A stretch of DNA of 20,501 nt, from IMG/VR virus record IMGVR_UViG_3300025112_002812, positions 1-20,501 of that record; one strand, written 5' to 3'. The stretch is from a virus. Of this stretch, positions 3,076 through 20,430 are shown piece by piece. The notes below the pieces were generated by a model. It did no database searches, was not told the DNA's origin, and saw only the letters and a program-made list of their open reading frames with translations. How positions within the stretch are numbered: the stretch's first letter is position 1; each line of letters opens with the position of its first letter. A program made the position numbers and the translations under genes.

Positions 3076-3413
3076 GTCCTAGACGAGCATTACCCAAACA
3101 CCCCTTGACAGTATACACTGGGATAAAAACATTTACAATCACGCAGAAGTCTTTAGCTAAAGACAATCTGTATGGGTGCGTAGAGTTTCCAAAGGCATTA
3201 CTCACCATAGACCCGAACCAAAGTATCGAAGATTATAAAAGTACTCTACTTCATGAACTCTGCCACATTGGTTTGGAAATCTTCGGACTTGATGACGATG
3301 ATGAAATACCCACAATAGGGAATGAATACTTAACAACCGTAATCTCTAACATGATTTTTCAATTAGCAGGGTTAAACCCTGAACTTTTTCAATATATTTT
3401 TAACAATGACTGA
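3072..3413 (+). CDS. Small HExxH metallopeptidase-like protein
   Basis: A 113-residue protein with the zinc-binding motif HELCH at residues 61-65, inside a helix (STLLHELCHIGLEIFGL). A Glu at residue 85 in NEYL is a candidate third ligand. The arrangement, helix-HExxH then a later helical Glu, is that of gluzincin or SprT/ImmA-like minimal zincins. No signal peptide or membrane segment is present, so it would act in the cytoplasm. The substrate is unknown. The acidic run DDDDE directly after the motif is a visible peculiarity. Its ATG overlaps the helicase stop (ATGA) and has GAGG upstream, and its end overlaps the next gene, so it is produced with replication proteins. Alternative: a non-catalytic phage protein that retains the zinc site. 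Confidence 0.55.
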   Translation: MSPRRALPKHPLTVYTGIKTFTITQKSLAKDNLYGCVEFPKALLTIDPNQSIEDYKSTLLHELCHIGLEIFGLDDDDEIPTIGNEYLTTVISNMIFQLAGLNPELFQYIFNND

Positions 3414-3846
3414 TATTAAAACCACTTACGATAGCTTAGCTGAGGAATATCTAAATCTCGCTAAGACTTACTTAACTATTGACGAAGATACCATGGACCT
3501 AGCAATCAAACGGCATTCATCTATCTTTGCTTTTTTTGGGTCGGTTCTGTCTTACGCTAAGAAGAAAAGCGACAAGCTTAGTACCTTACTAGAAATGCTT
3601 GAGGCGAAGCACATGGAACTCCGCAGAGCAGAGTTGGCCAGCCAAGGTACAAAAGCCACGCAAGGAGCCTTGAACGCTTACGTCCTAACGGTCCAGGAGC
3701 TAGTCGATTTGAGAGCACAGCTTTTGGAGGCTCAACATAAATACAACTTGGCGAGGAATATGGTAACATCCTTGGACCATCAAAAAGATATGTTGGTACA
3801 AATGTCTGCAAATAAACGTGCAGAAGTGAGGTTGCACGAACTATAA
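3406..3846 (+). CDS. UvsY-like coiled-coil protein, possible recombination mediator
   Basis: A 146-residue, almost entirely helical protein with no catalytic motif. The layout resembles T4 UvsY (137 residues), which loads UvsX onto SSB-coated DNA: an Ile-Asp near residue 25 (LTIDEDTMDLAIKRH), a long charged helix of about residues 45-78, then GTKAT at the start of a second helical half that ends in a basic helix with QKDML. I see no long identical stretch, so the call rests on size, pattern and position just upstream of a gp32-like SSB and in the same region as a UvsX homolog. It overlaps the previous gene by 8 bases and has no clear Shine-Dalgarno sequence, consistent with coupled translation. 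A candidate promoter for the next gene lies across its last codons. Confidence 0.4.
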   Translation: MTDIKTTYDSLAEEYLNLAKTYLTIDEDTMDLAIKRHSSIFAFFGSVLSYAKKKSDKLSTLLEMLEAKHMELRRAELASQGTKATQGALNAYVLTVQELVDLRAQLLEAQHKYNLARNMVTSLDHQKDMLVQMSANKRAEVRLHEL

Positions 3847-3848
3847 TA
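3827..3848 (+). promoter_or_regulatory. Candidate promoter for the SSB and glycan operon
   Basis: CTATAATA at 3841-3848 is the same 8-mer as in the candidate promoters before the genes at 14660 and 18040. The upstream box found there (TTAAG) is only partly matched, as TGAGG at 3827-3831, with the same 9-base spacing. Initiation about 7 bases after the hexamer would begin the transcript near 3854, right at the 5' arm of the GC-rich stem described next. The site overlaps the final codons of the upstream gene. Confidence 0.4.
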
Positions 3849-3852
3849 TATC

Positions 3853-3986
3853 GTGGGGGACAAAGGTTCCGAAGGAAGAAAGGGTCTGCCGTCGAAGCAC
3901 ATAAGGCTATCCAGTTGTTTGTACTAGAGCTGTAATTCCCGCTACACCCCCCACATTCACTACTAACAATAATTACAATTATAACT
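3853..3986 (+). promoter_or_regulatory. Structured, G-depleted leader of the SSB gene
   Basis: This gap contains no convincing gene. GTGGGGG at 3853-3859 can pair perfectly with CCCCCAC at 3948-3954, closing a domain of about 100 bases. Within it a small hairpin TTCC-GAA-GGAA (3867-3877) can form. From 3942 to 3988 there is no G at all, so no Shine-Dalgarno sequence precedes the ATG at 3987. TTGTT at 3915-3919 can pair with AACAA at 3965-3969, which would make a pseudoknot-like contact between the domain and the leader. T4 gene 32 mRNA is known to carry a pseudoknot followed by an unstructured leader where gp32 represses its own translation. This element has the same organisation, but no sequence similarity is claimed. 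It could instead be a metabolite-sensing or processing element. Confidence 0.45.
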
Positions 3987-4730
3987 ATGGTCAATTTAGA
4001 CGAACTACGAAAGAAATATGAGGAAGTTACCCAGCAAAACAGCGGTGGTAACAAAGATTTCCTCAGTAAATTTTTAATTACGAAAGAAGGGACATCCCTT
4101 GTACGAATTCTTCCTGCGAAGAACGAAGATGAGAACTTCTATGCGGAAACTGCCATCCATCGACTTGAGAATGACGGCCAGTTTAGAAACTATCACTGCC
4201 CACGAGTTAAGGGCAACAAGTGTCCTTTGTGCGACCTGTACTATGCTCTCTGGAAGACAGACAGCGACGACAACCATAATTTGGCACGAAGTATTAAAGC
4301 TCGCAAGCGGTATTATTTAAATGCTGTGGACCGTGAAACCGGAGCCGTTAAGATTTTGTCTATCGGTATGAAGTTATTCGGTAAGATTTTAGATTGCTTT
4401 TTTGATGATGATTACGGAGACATCACTGACCTTAAAGAGGGTTATGATTTCAAAGTGGTTAAAGACACTAATGGACAATTCCCCAACTACGATAAATCAG
4501 CGCCGAAGCCACGCCCTTCCGAGGCAGGCTCAGCGGCTGAAGTCGCGACTTGGATGGATGAACTCCACGATATTCAAAACTTGGTAAAGGTTGCGGAGTA
4601 TGATGAGCTAAAACAAATGGCTATGAACTATGAACTCGCTGCCGAAGGTATGGGAGGTTCTACTGGAGGCCAAGCAAAATCAGATGATGACTACTTGTCC
4701 CACCTTAAGAATCTCGATACCAACCAGTGA
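3987..4730 (+). CDS. Single-stranded DNA-binding protein, gp32-like
   Basis: A 247-residue SSB that would coat single-stranded DNA during replication and recombination. The gp32-like core is visible: LVRILPAKNEDENFYAE (residues about 38-54), corresponding to the T4 segment before the zinc site, then a probable zinc centre H58, C71, C79 and C82 (HCP...KCPLC). The N-terminus has RKK at residues 8-10, possibly equivalent to the cooperativity patch of T4 gp32. The C-terminus is Gly/Ser-rich, then acidic (SDDDYLSHLKNLD), as expected for the tail that contacts partner proteins. It is shorter than T4 gp32 (301). No Shine-Dalgarno sequence precedes the ATG; see the leader. Its stop overlaps the following GTG start (GTGA), so the glycan cassette is translationally tied to this gene. 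Confidence 0.82.
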   Translation: MVNLDELRKKYEEVTQQNSGGNKDFLSKFLITKEGTSLVRILPAKNEDENFYAETAIHRLENDGQFRNYHCPRVKGNKCPLCDLYYALWKTDSDDNHNLARSIKARKRYYLNAVDRETGAVKILSIGMKLFGKILDCFFDDDYGDITDLKEGYDFKVVKDTNGQFPNYDKSAPKPRPSEAGSAAEVATWMDELHDIQNLVKVAEYDELKQMAMNYELAAEGMGGSTGGQAKSDDDYLSHLKNLDTNQ

Positions 4731-14438: not shown

Positions 14439-14452
14439 CCTACCTAGTGGGT
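14438..14452 (+). terminator. Weak hairpin after gmd
   Basis: ACCTAC (14438-14443) can pair with GTGGGT (14447-14452) around a CTA loop, one pair being G-U. It begins at the last base of the gmd stop codon and is followed by AAAAATTT rather than a run of T. It could end or pause the long glycan transcript, but it lacks the T tract of a normal intrinsic terminator. Confidence 0.2.
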
Positions 14453-14493
14453 AAAAATTTCTCTCATCAATTTATTTCAAGGGTAAATACTAT

Positions 14494-14630: not shown

Positions 14631-14653
14631 CTTAAGCCGTTCCTTCTATAATA
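14631..14653 (+). promoter_or_regulatory. Candidate promoter of the recombinase gene (TTAAG-N9-CTATAATA)
   Basis: CTTAAG at 14631-14636, 9 bases, then CTATAATA at 14646-14653. The -10-like TATAAT (14647-14652) puts initiation near 14659, that is, at the ATG (14660). No TTGACA-like -35 hexamer occurs at the normal 17-base spacing, so the upstream TTAAG box probably replaces it. The same arrangement recurs before the genes at 16100 and 18040. Confidence 0.6.
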
Positions 14654-14659
14654 GAGGGT

Positions 14660-15631
14660 ATGGTAAGTTTTCTAGACGACATTTGTAAGGAGTTGGACGG
14701 TGCGTCGCTCCTTTCCACTGAGAGCCAAGTCTTCGGTTACGTAGACTCCGGGTCTAAGGTTTTAAATAAAATTATTTCTGGAGATTTTGACGGGGGGTAT
14801 CCAATTGGTTCGATTACAGAAATTTATGGCGAGAGCAGCACGGCGAAGACAGTATTTCTTACTCACGCGTTCATCGGAGCGCAAAAACAGGGATACTATA
14901 CAGTCATGGTTGACAATGAGCATGCCTACTCCCCCTCTTTCGCGGAAAAGCTAGGCATTGATTCGGATAAGTTAATCTATACCGAGCCTGAAACGCTTGA
15001 GGATTGTTTTGAGACCATTGAGAAGGCTATTTTGGCTATCCGAAAGAAGGATAAAGAAACTCCAATTATTATTGGGTATGATTCTATCGGGTCATCCCCG
15101 TCTAGAAAAGAGATGGATGACACCTTTGGCAAAAACTCAGAGATGGGGGGAGCTTTACGTGCCAAAGTTGCTGGACAGTGCCTCCGGAGAATCAACCCCC
15201 TACTTAGGAAGTATAAAGCTGGTTTAATTATCGTTAATCAGGTGCGAAGCAAGGTTGGGGTGATGTTTGGAGACCCGCGAACTAGGGCAGGAGGAGGTAA
15301 AGCCCTTCTATACTACTGTGGGACGTCTCTGGAAGCCGCTTCTGGAAAAAGTGACGCATTGTACGATGACAGGAAAAACCCGTTAGGGATTACGGGAACC
15401 ATTAAAGCGGTGAAGAATAAAATCACTAAGCCGTTTCAATCGTGTGAGTTCAAGTTGTTGTACGACCAAGGGCTGATGCCAGAATACGGGCTAACGATTG
15501 AGTACTACAAACAAGGCTTAGCCACAGTACCCGCTAAAGGCTGGTACTCTATTGATGGCGGCAAAACAAAAAGCCGGTCTGCCGACCTGGATAGAAAGAT
15601 TATGGAGCAATTAAATGGAACGAATTCATAA
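14660..15631 (+). CDS. uvsX: UvsX/RecA-type recombinase
   Basis: A 323-residue strand-exchange protein for recombination-dependent replication and repair. The ATPase core shows GESSTAKT at 57-64 as Walker A, DNEHAY at 85-90 with the RecA-type catalytic Glu, Walker B PIIIGYDSIG at 135-144, and the L2 region NQVRSKVGVMFGDP followed by AGGGKALLYYC. The final Walker A glycine is Ala62; T4 UvsX also departs from the canonical Gly here, which supports a phage UvsX rather than a bacterial RecA. The length (323) is near RecA (353) and lacks most of the RecA C-terminal domain. GAGGG ends one base before the ATG, too close for normal use, which agrees with a leaderless or very short-leader message. The end overlaps the RmlC-like gene by 17 bases. 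Confidence 0.87.
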   Translation: MVSFLDDICKELDGASLLSTESQVFGYVDSGSKVLNKIISGDFDGGYPIGSITEIYGESSTAKTVFLTHAFIGAQKQGYYTVMVDNEHAYSPSFAEKLGIDSDKLIYTEPETLEDCFETIEKAILAIRKKDKETPIIIGYDSIGSSPSRKEMDDTFGKNSEMGGALRAKVAGQCLRRINPLLRKYKAGLIIVNQVRSKVGVMFGDPRTRAGGGKALLYYCGTSLEAASGKSDALYDDRKNPLGITGTIKAVKNKITKPFQSCEFKLLYDQGLMPEYGLTIEYYKQGLATVPAKGWYSIDGGKTKSRSADLDRKIMEQLNGTNS

Positions 15632-16058
15632 ATTAGACAGATTTCTAGATTCTAGGGGGTGGAGCCTCAACGACATTTTCAGGCTGTTTGAAGGGGAGGA
15701 GTTTCAAATTAATTATTCTGTTCTCCATCCTGGAGTTATTAAAGCATGGCATAGGCATAAATACCAGGATGATTATTTCTGTGTCCTTAAAGGTAATGCC
15801 CAGGTTGGGATTTTCTCGGAGGTTCCCAGTGCGGATGGAAAATTAAAAGGTCCCGAGAAGCACTTTATTGGGGAACACAACCCTGCCGTTGTCCGTGTAA
15901 AAGCAGGAGAGTGGCATGGTCTTACGGCTATAGGTTGTGAACCTGTTGGCCTTCTATACCTTGTAACTAGAAAATATGACCCTGAAAGCCCTGATGAAGA
16001 AAGGGCTGGTTGGGAAAATTTTGGACCGGAGGGTTTTTGGTTTCCTGAAAACAAATAA
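15615..16058 (+). CDS. rmlC: RmlC-like cupin, probable dTDP-4-dehydrorhamnose 3,5-epimerase
   Basis: A 147-residue cupin. WHRHKYQDDYFCVLKGNAQV (about 45-64) aligns with the RmlC entry strands containing the catalytic-type His and Tyr, and GEWHGLTAIG...LLYLVTRKYDP with the second half including the Tyr of the active site. It is shorter than E. coli RmlC (185), with reduced N- and C-terminal arms. The function would be epimerisation of dTDP-4-keto-6-deoxyglucose at C3 and C5, the third enzyme of dTDP-L-rhamnose synthesis; rmlA, rmlB and rmlD are present 2 kb downstream. It could instead be a ketoisomerase of the same cupin group. GGAG is 7 bases before the ATG, and the start lies within the recombinase gene. 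Confidence 0.68.
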   Translation: MERIHKLDRFLDSRGWSLNDIFRLFEGEEFQINYSVLHPGVIKAWHRHKYQDDYFCVLKGNAQVGIFSEVPSADGKLKGPEKHFIGEHNPAVVRVKAGEWHGLTAIGCEPVGLLYLVTRKYDPESPDEERAGWENFGPEGFWFPENK

Positions 16059-16060
16059 AT

Positions 16061-16084
16061 CTTAAGCGCAACCCTGCTATATAC
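16061..16084 (+). promoter_or_regulatory. Candidate promoter (TTAAG-N10-CTATATAC)
   Basis: CTTAAG at 16061-16066, then 10 bases and CTATATAC at 16077-16084. Initiation would fall near 16090, leaving a leader of about 10 bases that contains GAGGATAA as ribosome binding site for the ATG at 16100. This is the second of three closely similar sites and has the least perfect -10 (TATATA). Confidence 0.55.
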
Positions 16085-16099
16085 TTTAGAGGATAAGCA

Positions 16100-16441
16100 A
16101 TGAAACATATTCCCCCATCGGATACCGCTGAAAAGCATGGAAGAACAACTTCTATGAAGGCAAAGGTTAAGTCCTTTCCCTACATTCGAGTAGCCCTTCA
16201 ACAAGCTGATTATGGGACTATCTTTACAACTCCTCAGTCCGACGATATTTACGTTATCACCCATGGTACATGGGGAGATAAGTCCGCAAATAAAGTCGTA
16301 AAAAGTTTTAAACCGGATACACCCTTTGCTGAGATTAAAGGGTATTCGAAAAGAACAAAAGTTAAGCATGGTCGTTTAGGACAAAAACACAAAGGTGAAA
16401 TATCCGGCGGCTACAGTGTAAAAACAAATAAGGAAAAATAA
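16100..16441 (+). CDS. Unrecognised basic protein, 113 residues
   Basis: I do not recognise a family. The protein is soluble, strongly basic at both ends (AEKHGRTTSMKAKVK near the start, SKRTKVKHGRLGQKHKGE near residue 85-100) with a central segment of probable strands (IRVALQQADYGTIFTT, DIYVITHGTWG). It has no signal peptide, membrane segment or metal motif. It has a good ribosome binding site and its own candidate promoter, and it is the first gene of a unit of three ending in the Clp-type ATPase; its stop overlaps the next ATG. The basic tail could bind nucleic acid or act as an adaptor for the ATPase. These are guesses from charge and position only. Confidence 0.6.
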   Translation: MKHIPPSDTAEKHGRTTSMKAKVKSFPYIRVALQQADYGTIFTTPQSDDIYVITHGTWGDKSANKVVKSFKPDTPFAEIKGYSKRTKVKHGRLGQKHKGEISGGYSVKTNKEK

Positions 16442-16767
16442 TGTATACCCCTAAAACTTCCTACTTCTCGTCAACGAGGGTCCAAAAACTAGCCAAAGAG
16501 GTTATTGCGGACTGCCGTTGCGACAGGGATAGGGCTTTAGAGGCGTTTACTTATTTTAAAACTATGGTTGAGTCTAATCCGGATGACCACAAAGCGAAGA
16601 CGGAAATGAATAAAGCTCTACAGTTATCTCAAGATTCTAACGATAAAGTAGTTAGAATTTTAGATATGATGTTGAAAATGACACAAACCGAAATGAAAAC
16701 CGCTCCCCCAAAGAGCAACACTGACGATATAACTTTTGCATCTTTACGAAATGGCAAGAAAACATAA
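16441..16767 (+). CDS. Unrecognised helical protein, 108 residues
   Basis: No family recognised. Residues 10-75 are predicted by eye to be helical (VQKLAKEVIADCRCDRDRAL, then KVVRILDMMLKMTQ), ending in a flexible Pro/Lys tail. C25 and C27 (CRC) are the only cysteines. Compact helical proteins of this size in phages include adaptors, small terminase subunits and DNA-binding proteins, but nothing here separates these. It starts on the stop of the previous gene (TAATG) with AAGGA upstream and overlaps the ATPase gene by 17 bases, so it is made together with the ATPase and may be its partner. Confidence 0.6.
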   Translation: MYTPKTSYFSSTRVQKLAKEVIADCRCDRDRALEAFTYFKTMVESNPDDHKAKTEMNKALQLSQDSNDKVVRILDMMLKMTQTEMKTAPPKSNTDDITFASLRNGKKT

Positions 16768-18010
16768 AAAAACAGAAGACTTTGTAGTTTACAGCTCTAA
16801 CCTAGACGAATTTCTAAGATTAAGAAATTTCACAGACAAAGAGCTGGACAATTGCGTTAGTAAGGTCAAGACCCTTGTAACGAGTAATAAAAGCTCTATT
16901 AGGGATTACATTCACCTGTTAGTAACGTGCGTGGTTTACGACCATAAAAAGTATATCCATCCTGAAAAGGATGATGAAACGTACGATGCCCTTTTCGAAG
17001 CCGTCCTTGAAGCATACCCAATGTTTCAGATTGATTCTATCTGCGAAATGCTGAATACTAAGGTTATTACGGAGGAGTTAGGTCTTAAGGACTCCAACAG
17101 CCCGGCTGCGTCTGTTAAAAATTTGAAGGAACTAAAAGCGATAGAGAAAGGGTTAAAAACTCGGGTAATAGGGCAGGACACAGCGGTCGGTGAAGTGATT
17201 GATGCGTTAAAACTTAGAGCGGCAGGATTTTCTGGTTTTTCATCGTTTTTCTTTATAGGTCCTACTGGAGTTGGAAAGACTGAATTGGCTCGAGCTTTAG
17301 CAGAAGGCTACTTAGGTTCAAAAAAGAAGTTGTTGAAGATTAATTGTGGGGAATATTCTAACCCCCACGAGTATGCAAAGCTAATCGGCTCTCCTCCTGG
17401 GTATATTGGGTTTAACGAGAAGGGAATCTTAAGCGAAAAGGCTGACGAATCCTCGGAGTGGGTAATTCTTTTTGATGAGATTGAAAAGGCCAGTGGGAAG
17501 CTTCACAATCTTCTGTTGGGCTTTCTCGATGACGGAACTATTCAGGATAACCACGGCACCGAGCTTAATTTTAAAAATTCGGTGATTGTGTTTACTAGTA
17601 ATATTGGGATGGAGCACGTTGGTAAAAAAATGTTGGGATTCGGCTCAGGAGAGCTGTCGTATGATGATGTTAAAATTAATGTGATGGATGCCTTTAAGGG
17701 AAAGTTTCCTCCGGAGTTCATTAATAGGATAGACCAGGTTGTACACTTTAACCAACTTACACGGGGGGATACCGCCAAGATTGCCAAATTAAACCTGAAA
17801 GATTTGCCCATCAAGCCCACTAAAAAATTAATTGATTGGGTTGTGGCAGGCGGGTACTCTAAGGAGTATGGTGCTCGTAATTTAAAAAGGTTCATTAGGA
17901 AAAATGTAACATTAAAGTTAGCTGATGCGCTGTTAGAGGGCCCAAAGTTTAAACAATATGTCCCTTTGTTTTTGGATGGGGTTTTAAATGTGTCGGGAAT
18001 TAGTGAATAA
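16751..18010 (+). CDS. Clp-type AAA+ ATPase, single ring (ClpA/ClpC D2-like)
   Basis: A 419-residue protein unfoldase-like ATPase. Residues 1-135 are a helical N-terminal region I do not recognise. The AAA+ module matches the second ring of ClpA/B/C: VIGQ at 139-142, Walker A GPTGVGKT at 170-177, the substrate pore loop GYIG with Tyr218, Walker B VILFDE at 238-243, sensor 1 TSN at 282-284, arginine finger R326 in FINRID, and sensor 2 GARNLKR at 374-380. Between sensor 1 and the arginine finger sits LGF at 295-297, where ClpA and ClpC carry the IGL/VGF tripeptide that docks on ClpP and where ClpB has none. There is no protease domain. ATG at 16751 is chosen over a TTG at 16736. Neither has a clear ribosome binding site; coupling to the upstream gene is likely. 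Confidence 0.85.
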   Translation: MARKHKKTEDFVVYSSNLDEFLRLRNFTDKELDNCVSKVKTLVTSNKSSIRDYIHLLVTCVVYDHKKYIHPEKDDETYDALFEAVLEAYPMFQIDSICEMLNTKVITEELGLKDSNSPAASVKNLKELKAIEKGLKTRVIGQDTAVGEVIDALKLRAAGFSGFSSFFFIGPTGVGKTELARALAEGYLGSKKKLLKINCGEYSNPHEYAKLIGSPPGYIGFNEKGILSEKADESSEWVILFDEIEKASGKLHNLLLGFLDDGTIQDNHGTELNFKNSVIVFTSNIGMEHVGKKMLGFGSGELSYDDVKINVMDAFKGKFPPEFINRIDQVVHFNQLTRGDTAKIAKLNLKDLPIKPTKKLIDWVVAGGYSKEYGARNLKRFIRKNVTLKLADALLEGPKFKQYVPLFLDGVLNVSGISE

Positions 18011-18012
18011 TT

Positions 18013-18035
18013 TTTAAGACATTATTACTATAATA
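18013..18035 (+). promoter_or_regulatory. Candidate promoter of the rml genes (TTAAG-N9-CTATAATA)
   Basis: TTTAAG at 18013-18018, 9 bases, and CTATAATA at 18028-18035. The hexamer TATAAT ends at 18034, only 5 bases before the ATG at 18040, so transcription from this site would start at the start codon. No Shine-Dalgarno sequence is present in the 30 bases upstream, which agrees with a leaderless message. Confidence 0.6.
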
Positions 18036-18039
18036 ATAT

Positions 18040-18768
18040 ATGAAAGGAATTGTACTAGCTGGGGGCCTGGGTTCTAGATTGAAACCTCTGACCGACGCCA
18101 CTAACAAGCATTTGCTCCCTATCTACGATAGACCTATGGTGTATTACCCTATACAAACATTGGTAGACGCTGGGATTGAGGATGTTATGGTGGTTACAGG
18201 CGGACCTCATGCAGGAGATTTTATTAGAGTATTAAAAAATGGTGAAACGTTCGGACTTAAAAAATTACACTACGCCTACCAAGAAGGGGAAGGGGGTATT
18301 GCGCAAGCTCTCAGCATGGCTGAGACCTTTGTCGGAGATGATGACTGCGTTGTGGTTTTGGGGGATAATATTATTGCTGACGATATACATTGCCATGTTA
18401 GGGATTTTAGTGCTATTAGGGGCTGCATGGTCTTCACTAAGGAAGTGGCTGACCCGGAAAGGTTTGGTGTGATTGAATATGAACCTGTCGGTAAGGGAGT
18501 GGCTGATATTATAGAAAAACCTGTAACCCCTCCCTCTAATGATGCTGTAATTGGCTTGTATATCTATGATAGTTCTGTATTTTCAAAAATTAAATCACTT
18601 TCTCCTTCTGCAAGGGGTGAATTGGAAGTTACGGACCTAAATAGAATGTACCTTAAAGAAGGTAACCTGGAAGTTCGCAAGATAACCGGAACTTGGCTAG
18701 ATTGCGGAACCCCTGATTCTTTGGCGGAAGCCACTTCTAAATTTTATAATGACACAAAAGGACTCTAA
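18040..18768 (+). CDS. rmlA: Glucose-1-phosphate thymidylyltransferase
   Basis: A 242-residue nucleotidyltransferase that forms dTDP-glucose from dTTP and glucose-1-phosphate, the first step of dTDP-L-rhamnose synthesis. The N-terminal LAGGLGSRLKPLT (6-18), NKHLLPIYDRPMVYYPIQT (22-40), QEGEGGIAQAL (81-91), VVLGDN with the metal-binding Asp109, and ERFGVIEY are the RmlA signatures. It is the short form (242 against 292 in E. coli), lacking the C-terminal dimerisation/allosteric extension, so feedback inhibition by dTDP-rhamnose may differ. The start is certain because MKGIVLAGG is the conserved N-terminus. The candidate promoter ends 5 bases before it. The stop overlaps rmlB by 20 bases. Confidence 0.92.
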   Translation: MKGIVLAGGLGSRLKPLTDATNKHLLPIYDRPMVYYPIQTLVDAGIEDVMVVTGGPHAGDFIRVLKNGETFGLKKLHYAYQEGEGGIAQALSMAETFVGDDDCVVVLGDNIIADDIHCHVRDFSAIRGCMVFTKEVADPERFGVIEYEPVGKGVADIIEKPVTPPSNDAVIGLYIYDSSVFSKIKSLSPSARGELEVTDLNRMYLKEGNLEVRKITGTWLDCGTPDSLAEATSKFYNDTKGL

Positions 18769-20420: not shown

Positions 20421-20430
20421 GACCATAACT

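Follow-up and report, generated by a model that had tools for sequence, protein, structure and literature searches.

A -10-only promoter class of uncultured marine T4-like phages, with transcription starts predicted at the start codon

The sequence CTATAATA, here called the class A box, precedes uvsX, gp32 and an rfbA-like gene in the phage DNA analyzed and is best read, with a probability of about 0.8 judged from sequence, as a -10-only promoter whose start site falls at the start codon and whose mRNA would be leaderless. The box would act as a -10 element without a -35 for uvsX, gp32, and a gene for a gp55-like sigma factor and, depending on the lineage, for gp41, rfbA, and others. Counted from the C of the box, transcription would begin about 12 nt downstream. 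In most class A genes this base would be the first of the start codon, A or G, so that translation would proceed from a 5'-terminal AUG or GUG without a Shine-Dalgarno (SD) sequence. The rfbA site would fit this scheme exactly and the uvsX site to within 2 nt, while at gp32 the same start point would open a leader that folds into a hairpin at its 5' end. A second class of boxes, CTA(A/T/G)ATA (class B), usually located farther upstream and accompanied by an AGGAG-like site, would serve the structural (late) genes and includes a site at 16077.

The phage group and its class A boxes

The window, i.e., the whole stretch of DNA analyzed, is a complete IMG/VR record of 20,501 nt and a fragment of a T4-like phage; it also carries sugar-nucleotide genes, and no Rfam families or tRNAs were found in it. 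A second record of 51 kb (L004/G001), nearly identical to it, extends this content by tail, baseplate, and head genes. The search with UvsX returned 62 related, uvsX-bearing loci in viral contigs, the best match among phage isolates being about 32% identical, and no relative of the phage was found in the bacterial genome contigs searched for a host. The phage group is described as an uncultured family of marine T4-like phages. The contigs, in which genes were called by a simple script, are fragments and are related to one another, so that the counts given below are not independent. The features of the window that bear on class A, together with two further identified genes, are as follows.

1798: gene of a DnaB/gp41-like helicase
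3841..3848, + strand: CTATAATA box of gp32/SSB, its TAA also serving the upstream gene 3406-3846 as stop codon
3853..3986, + strand: predicted gp32 leader RNA, which begins with GUGGGGG, pairing with a downstream CCCCCAC to form a 5'-terminal hairpin
3987..4730, + strand: gp32-like single-stranded-DNA-binding protein (Pfam gp32, 1.9e-19)
14646..14653, + strand: CTATAATA box of uvsX, with the ATG at 14660, 6 nt past the box; predicted transcription start at 14658-14660, leader of 0 to 2 nt
14660..15631, + strand: uvsX, RecA family (Pfam RecA, 3.4e-43)
16751: gene of a Clp-type AAA ATPase
18028..18035, + strand: CTATAATA box of the nucleotidyltransferase gene, its C standing exactly 12 nt ahead of the ATG; T at -1
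18040..18768, + strand: rfbA-like sugar nucleotidyltransferase (Pfam NTP_transferase, 3e-52)

A fixed spacing separates the box from the start codon in most class A genes. In 39 non-redundant contigs, 41 of the 116 gene-strand copies of CTATAATA are followed by exactly four nucleotides and ATG, versus 2 of 76 copies on the other strand, and an unbiased positional k-mer scan (1,495 genes, 40 contigs) returned the CTATAATA motif, with its C at -12 from the start codon, as the top motif. Boxes of the form CTATWAYA were found before 95 starts, and 65 of them lie exactly 12 nt before ATG or GTG (hexamer TATAAT-N5-ATG), the arrangement of leaderless, -10-adjacent genes, in which the hexamer ends 5 to 6 nt from the start codon. 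Those at -12 are spread over 24 gene families, and the families with a class A box include uvsX, gp41 (several with GTG), rfbA, GDP-mannose-dehydratase-like genes, a RusA-like resolvase, a small sigma factor, and a dCMP-deaminase-like gene, among others, the names RusA-like, small sigma, and dCMP-deaminase-like having been assigned partly by eye. The set comprises replication, recombination, nucleotide, and late-transcription genes of the T4 middle type (uvsX, gp41, gp32, dUTPase, the dCMP-deaminase-like gene, and the gp55-like sigma gene). For uvsX itself, CTATAATA or a near variant lies no more than 14 nt from the ATG in 34 of 36 distinct upstream sequences; the boxless uvsX of L027 carries GGGAG instead. 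The uvsX of the window has a spacing of 6 rather than 4, i.e., 2 nt longer than the class norm. An inverted repeat surrounds the box in several uvsX promoters (14641-14657 in the window and just before 10001 in L016), with the arms CCTTC-TATAATA-GAGGG in the window and AGCCATGCC-TATAATA-AGGCATGGCT in L016; it is a possible operator or hairpin.

The motif was recovered in a second search with the gp55-like sigma, in which loci of already examined contigs were excluded by name and some of the remaining ones were close to them: CT(A/T/G)TNA(T/C) stands at exactly -12 in 28 of 37 distinct upstream sequences, and a pyrimidine occupies -1 in all 28. By comparison, when every ATG of the gp41 loci is considered, 0.13% have the slightly tighter pattern CT(A/G)TNA(T/C) at -12. 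When gp41 was searched in a similar manner, only 1 of 38 upstream sequences had the box; therefore, the operon heads that carry class A vary by lineage. In eight related contigs, CTATAAT-N4-Y-ATG occurs 22 times and the reversed pattern twice, while in T4, Syn9, P-SSM2, S-PM2, HTVC008M, SP-15, LIS04, RM378, KVP40, and S-CRM01 (1.9 Mb) the 3 matches do not exceed the reversed-pattern control. On these sequence counts, the arrangement is a trait of the uncultured group that the ten T4-like isolates lack. The notion that these are functionless AT-rich matches owed to chance does draw on the AT-richness of the intergenic DNA, which explains the TTAAG half of the motif described below; for CTATAATA, however, it is refuted by the fixed spacing in 24 families, the strand bias, and the recovery in the second search, and we give it practically no credence.

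Two further observations concern sequence around the genes. The TAA within CTATAATA is often the stop codon of the preceding gene, so that promoter and gene end overlap (3838-3848 in the window and gap-6 genes of relatives). A short repeat, AAAAGTCAAAA, sometimes in tandem as (AAAAGTC)n, reaches about 20 copies in a contig, almost all of them on the gene strand, and is found in both coding and intergenic DNA; its copy number varies between close relatives, it is present in G002 (38.7-50.9 kb), G003 (44.5-45.1 kb), G016, G011, L050, L035, and G013, and it is absent from G001.

Predicted transcription starts at start codons

The base before the start codon is an indirect pointer to a transcription start. 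A pyrimidine occupies -1 in 64 of 65 genes with a box at -12 (98.5%); the share is 63% where the box is spaced differently and 59% among 486 other genes (Fisher p 8e-13, uncorrected for relatedness among contigs). A pyrimidine at -1 followed by a purine at +1 is the initiator context expected of a transcription start. The arrangement TATAAT, 5 nt, and ATG would put the RNA start on the A of the ATG or no more than one base away. In some bacteria, start codons are generally preceded by a conserved pyrimidine or dipyrimidine (PMC3160421), so the key control is the dependence on spacing, and here the pyrimidine at -1 does depend on the exact spacing of the box. SD-like tetramers are found in 6% of class A genes, compared with 62% of the genes behind late-type boxes and 11% of control stretches.

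A -35 element is likewise missing. With spacers of 16 to 18 nt, at most 1 of the 95 boxes at each spacer has TTGACA with one mismatch or fewer, and a hidden -35 was rejected, as no spacer is enriched for TTGACA. Because canonical -35/-10 promoters occur in the same phages, the missing -35 is a feature of class A. The minus strand of G006 (4.2-9.7 kb in reverse-strand coordinates) holds a cluster of near-identical early promoters, TTGACA-N17-TATACT with an extended -10 (TGTTATACT); several of the canonical TTGACA/TATAMT promoters of this contig have an ATG 6 to 9 nt after the hexamer, and by this spacing the early mRNAs may be leaderless too.

The gp32 gene, in which the box is set apart from the start codon, provides an independent check. 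Its class A box lies 46 to 168 nt upstream of the ATG in the relatives, and when the RNA is folded from the class A offset, the first paired base is nucleotide 1 to 3 in 13 of 13 relatives, versus 34% in shuffles; the leader sequences differ among relatives, and the start of the stem is retained. The leader of about 35 to 155 nt, with its 5'-terminal hairpin in 13 of 13, is possibly an mRNA stabilizer or an autoregulatory site. These data also bear on whether the element works in translation, as an AU-rich start-site signal or a repressor target, rather than as a promoter. The fixed distance to the start codon and the lack of an SD sequence would suit such a role; against it stand the occurrence of the same box 46 to 168 nt from the ATG of gp32, where the class A offset coincides with a 5' hairpin, and the identity of the box to a -10 consensus together with its possible overlap with an upstream stop codon, and we regard a role in translation as improbable. 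Under the promoter reading, the start at the class A offset and the middle-type timing suggested by the gene set are both predictions from sequence.

In L022, L023, L025, L035, L036, and L039, the gene upstream of rfbA is closed by a terminator-like hairpin followed by a T-run, immediately ahead of the class A box of rfbA; the window lacks this hairpin.

TTAAG and the activator proposal

An earlier note had described a single recurring promoter motif in which TTAAG precedes CTATA, and the letters are indeed present. The pattern TTAAG-N(9/10)-CTATA occurs in the window, which is the whole record, at 14632-14650 (N9), 16062-16081 (N10), and 18014-18032 (N9), 3 matches versus 0.38 expected and a count reached in 0 of 100 shuffles; none of the three sites has a TTGACA-type -35, as the note had stated, and its view that -35-less phage promoters head separate transcription units is supported. 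The half of the motif that is conserved, well in excess of chance, is CTATAATA. TTAAG is not kept among relatives, however, and by itself it is frequent: the + strand of the window holds 33 of them.

14632..14636, + strand: TTAAG before uvsX, conserved no further than the nearest relative
16062..16066, + strand: TTAAG before the class B box, not conserved
18014..18018, + strand: TTAAG before rfbA, not conserved

The claim that all three short gaps carry TTAAG was selective, for although the three sites are real, the gaps at 14439-14493 and 20421-20430 and the 140-nt gap at 3847-3986 lack it. The partial match reported before the SSB gene is a CTATAATA box at 3841-3848 with no TTAAG. Nor is there one recurring motif: CTATAATA stands at 14646 and 18028, whereas 16077 is CTATATA followed by AGAGGA. 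Since 16077 aligns with class B, the three sites are two of class A and one of class B.

The same note proposed a promoter resembling T4 middle promoters, with an activator dimer bound to the palindrome CTTAAG near -30 in place of the -35 contact. In its favor, there are three exact matches in the window; the gene set and the absent -35 resemble T4 middle promoters, in which 12 +/- 1 bp separate the -10 from the MotA box upstream (PMC2988021); and 14 nt ahead of the C in the class A box the share of T is 58%, a weak A/T preference near the expected position and the sole remaining signal at the TTAAG distance. The proposal meets several lines of counterevidence: (i) in the aligned orthologous promoters of close relatives TTAAG is lost, being retained at uvsX only in L005/G002, a relative 91% identical, and missing from all three sites in L006/G003, and it stands at N9 in 3 of the 95 boxes of the CTATAATA class; (ii) a pattern scan of IMG/VR returned 120 stretches with CTTAAG-N9/10-CTATAATA, and just two of them, identical in sequence, are followed by a start codon at the proper distance; (iii) profiles of MotA and AsiA each matched 0 of 17 related contigs, which are fragments, while the T4 positive control was matched; and (iv) one of the three, 16077, is a late-type site. 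On the conservation data and the IMG/VR scan, TTAAG or CTTAAG is not supported as an activator site, dimeric or not, TTAAG next to the box is by its distribution probably chance, and the model as a whole is very unlikely. What holds of the likeness is that the uvsX and rfbA sites precede a replication, recombination, and DNA-metabolism set; a conserved box near -30 is missing.

Conserved upstream activator motifs in general were also sought and rejected: the best positional k-mers were GATT at -30 and AAAA at -18, in a scan that ended at 5-mers and did not control for gene family. The GATT k-mer falls in the rfbA terminators of relatives.

Late-type boxes, sigma-like proteins, and known systems

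The boxes CTAAATA, CTATATAA, and CTAGATA are strongly enriched upstream of genes, mostly 20 to 28 nt from the ATG and often with AGGAG-like sites. They precede tail tube, baseplate, and other structural genes and are, like T4 late (gp55-type) promoters, TATAAATA-like and -10-only.

14483..14489, + strand: GTAAATA box upstream of a small lysine-rich ORF, whose ATG (14494) follows after 4 nt
16077..16083, + strand: CTATATA box of class B, aligned with CTATATA/CTAAATA/CTAGATA of orthologous promoters
16088..16093, + strand: AGAGGA, SD-like, of the class B gene 16100-16441

GTAAATA or GTAGATA followed by N4-ATG is conserved in G002 and G003, and the box at 14483 is, on this conservation, probably a late-type box in the leaderless position.

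The profile of sigma70 region 2 (Sigma70_r2) matched 16 of the 17 related contigs, through two types of protein. The first, of about 130 amino acids, carries region 2 only, as in the gp55 family (Sigma70_r2, 4.9e-6, Pfam); it matches the late sigma of HTVC008M (hhalign, 2e-5) and, weakly, T4 gp55 itself, its fold matches are to sigma domain 2, including gp55 (7d7c), with all E values above 0.1, and its gene has its own class A box. The second, of about 195 amino acids, combines region 2 with a C-terminal helix-turn-helix, and its gene is part of a cobS-like operon; most of the protein's nearest fold matches are to sigma factors, and both its sequence and fold matches are weak. It was located as follows.

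G002, 44854-45426: sigma-like protein of about 195 amino acids
G011, 45579-46163: the same type
G016, about 97.7 kb: the same type
L255, about 4.8 kb: the same type

A special form of the leaderless-promoter explanation would be a sigma cascade, in which the 195-amino-acid protein reads class A, and the gp55-like sigma, expressed from class A, reads class B. We put this forward tentatively. Two Sigma70_r2 protein types in the relatives, the class A box of the gp55-like gene, and the position of the second protein in the cobS-like operon with fold matches mostly to sigma factors would all agree with it, as would the class A consensus, which allows CTGTAAT and CTATAAC, a tolerance that would be unusual for sigma70. 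The pairing of protein and box is, however, conjectural for both proteins, the matches of the second protein are weak, and a perfect TATAAT would suit the sigma70 of the host as well. Somewhat more speculatively still, the lineage could have exchanged MotA/AsiA middle control for a two-sigma cascade, a small phage sigma starting a whole temporal class of genes exactly at their start codons and thereby linking the choice of promoter to a leaderless mode of translation.

Marine T4-like phages are abundant, and the control of middle genes outside T4 is little known. If the leaderless reading is true, the middle genes (leaderless) would be set apart from most late genes (SD-led) by both promoter and mode of translation, and a simple sequence rule would serve for gene-start correction and operon prediction in hundreds of environmental contigs.

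Mechanistic relatives of the class A promoter are already known. Leaderless, -10-adjacent genes of Deinococcus-Thermus and Actinobacteria have TANNNT about 10 to 12 bp before the start codon (PMC12340547, PMC3160421); they share with class A the -10 directly before the ORF, the lack of an SD sequence, the strict spacing, and the dispensable -35, whereas here the carriers are T4-like phages with a host not known to belong to those phyla, the box is CTATAATA, and only a replication/metabolism class of genes is involved. The middle and late mRNAs of the Thermus phage phiYS40 are leaderless (reviewed in PMC3594737) and thus offer the precedent of a whole temporal class of such mRNAs in a phage, as predicted here; host and promoter are unrelated, however, and in our phages the predicted class is of the middle type, with most late boxes followed by an SD sequence. 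With T4 middle promoters (PMC2988021), class A has in common the gene set (T4 PuvsX is a middle promoter), the -10 TATAAT, and the absence of a -35, but it differs in having no conserved box near -30, no MotA or AsiA found, and a start predicted at the start codon. T4 late promoters, finally, are -10-only and read by gp55 (PMC2988020), with the consensus TATAAAT (quoted in PMC3037559); class B CTAWATA resembles this consensus, and a gp55-like sigma is present in the group, whereas class A, although equally -10-only, departs from the T4 late type in sequence, placement, and genes.
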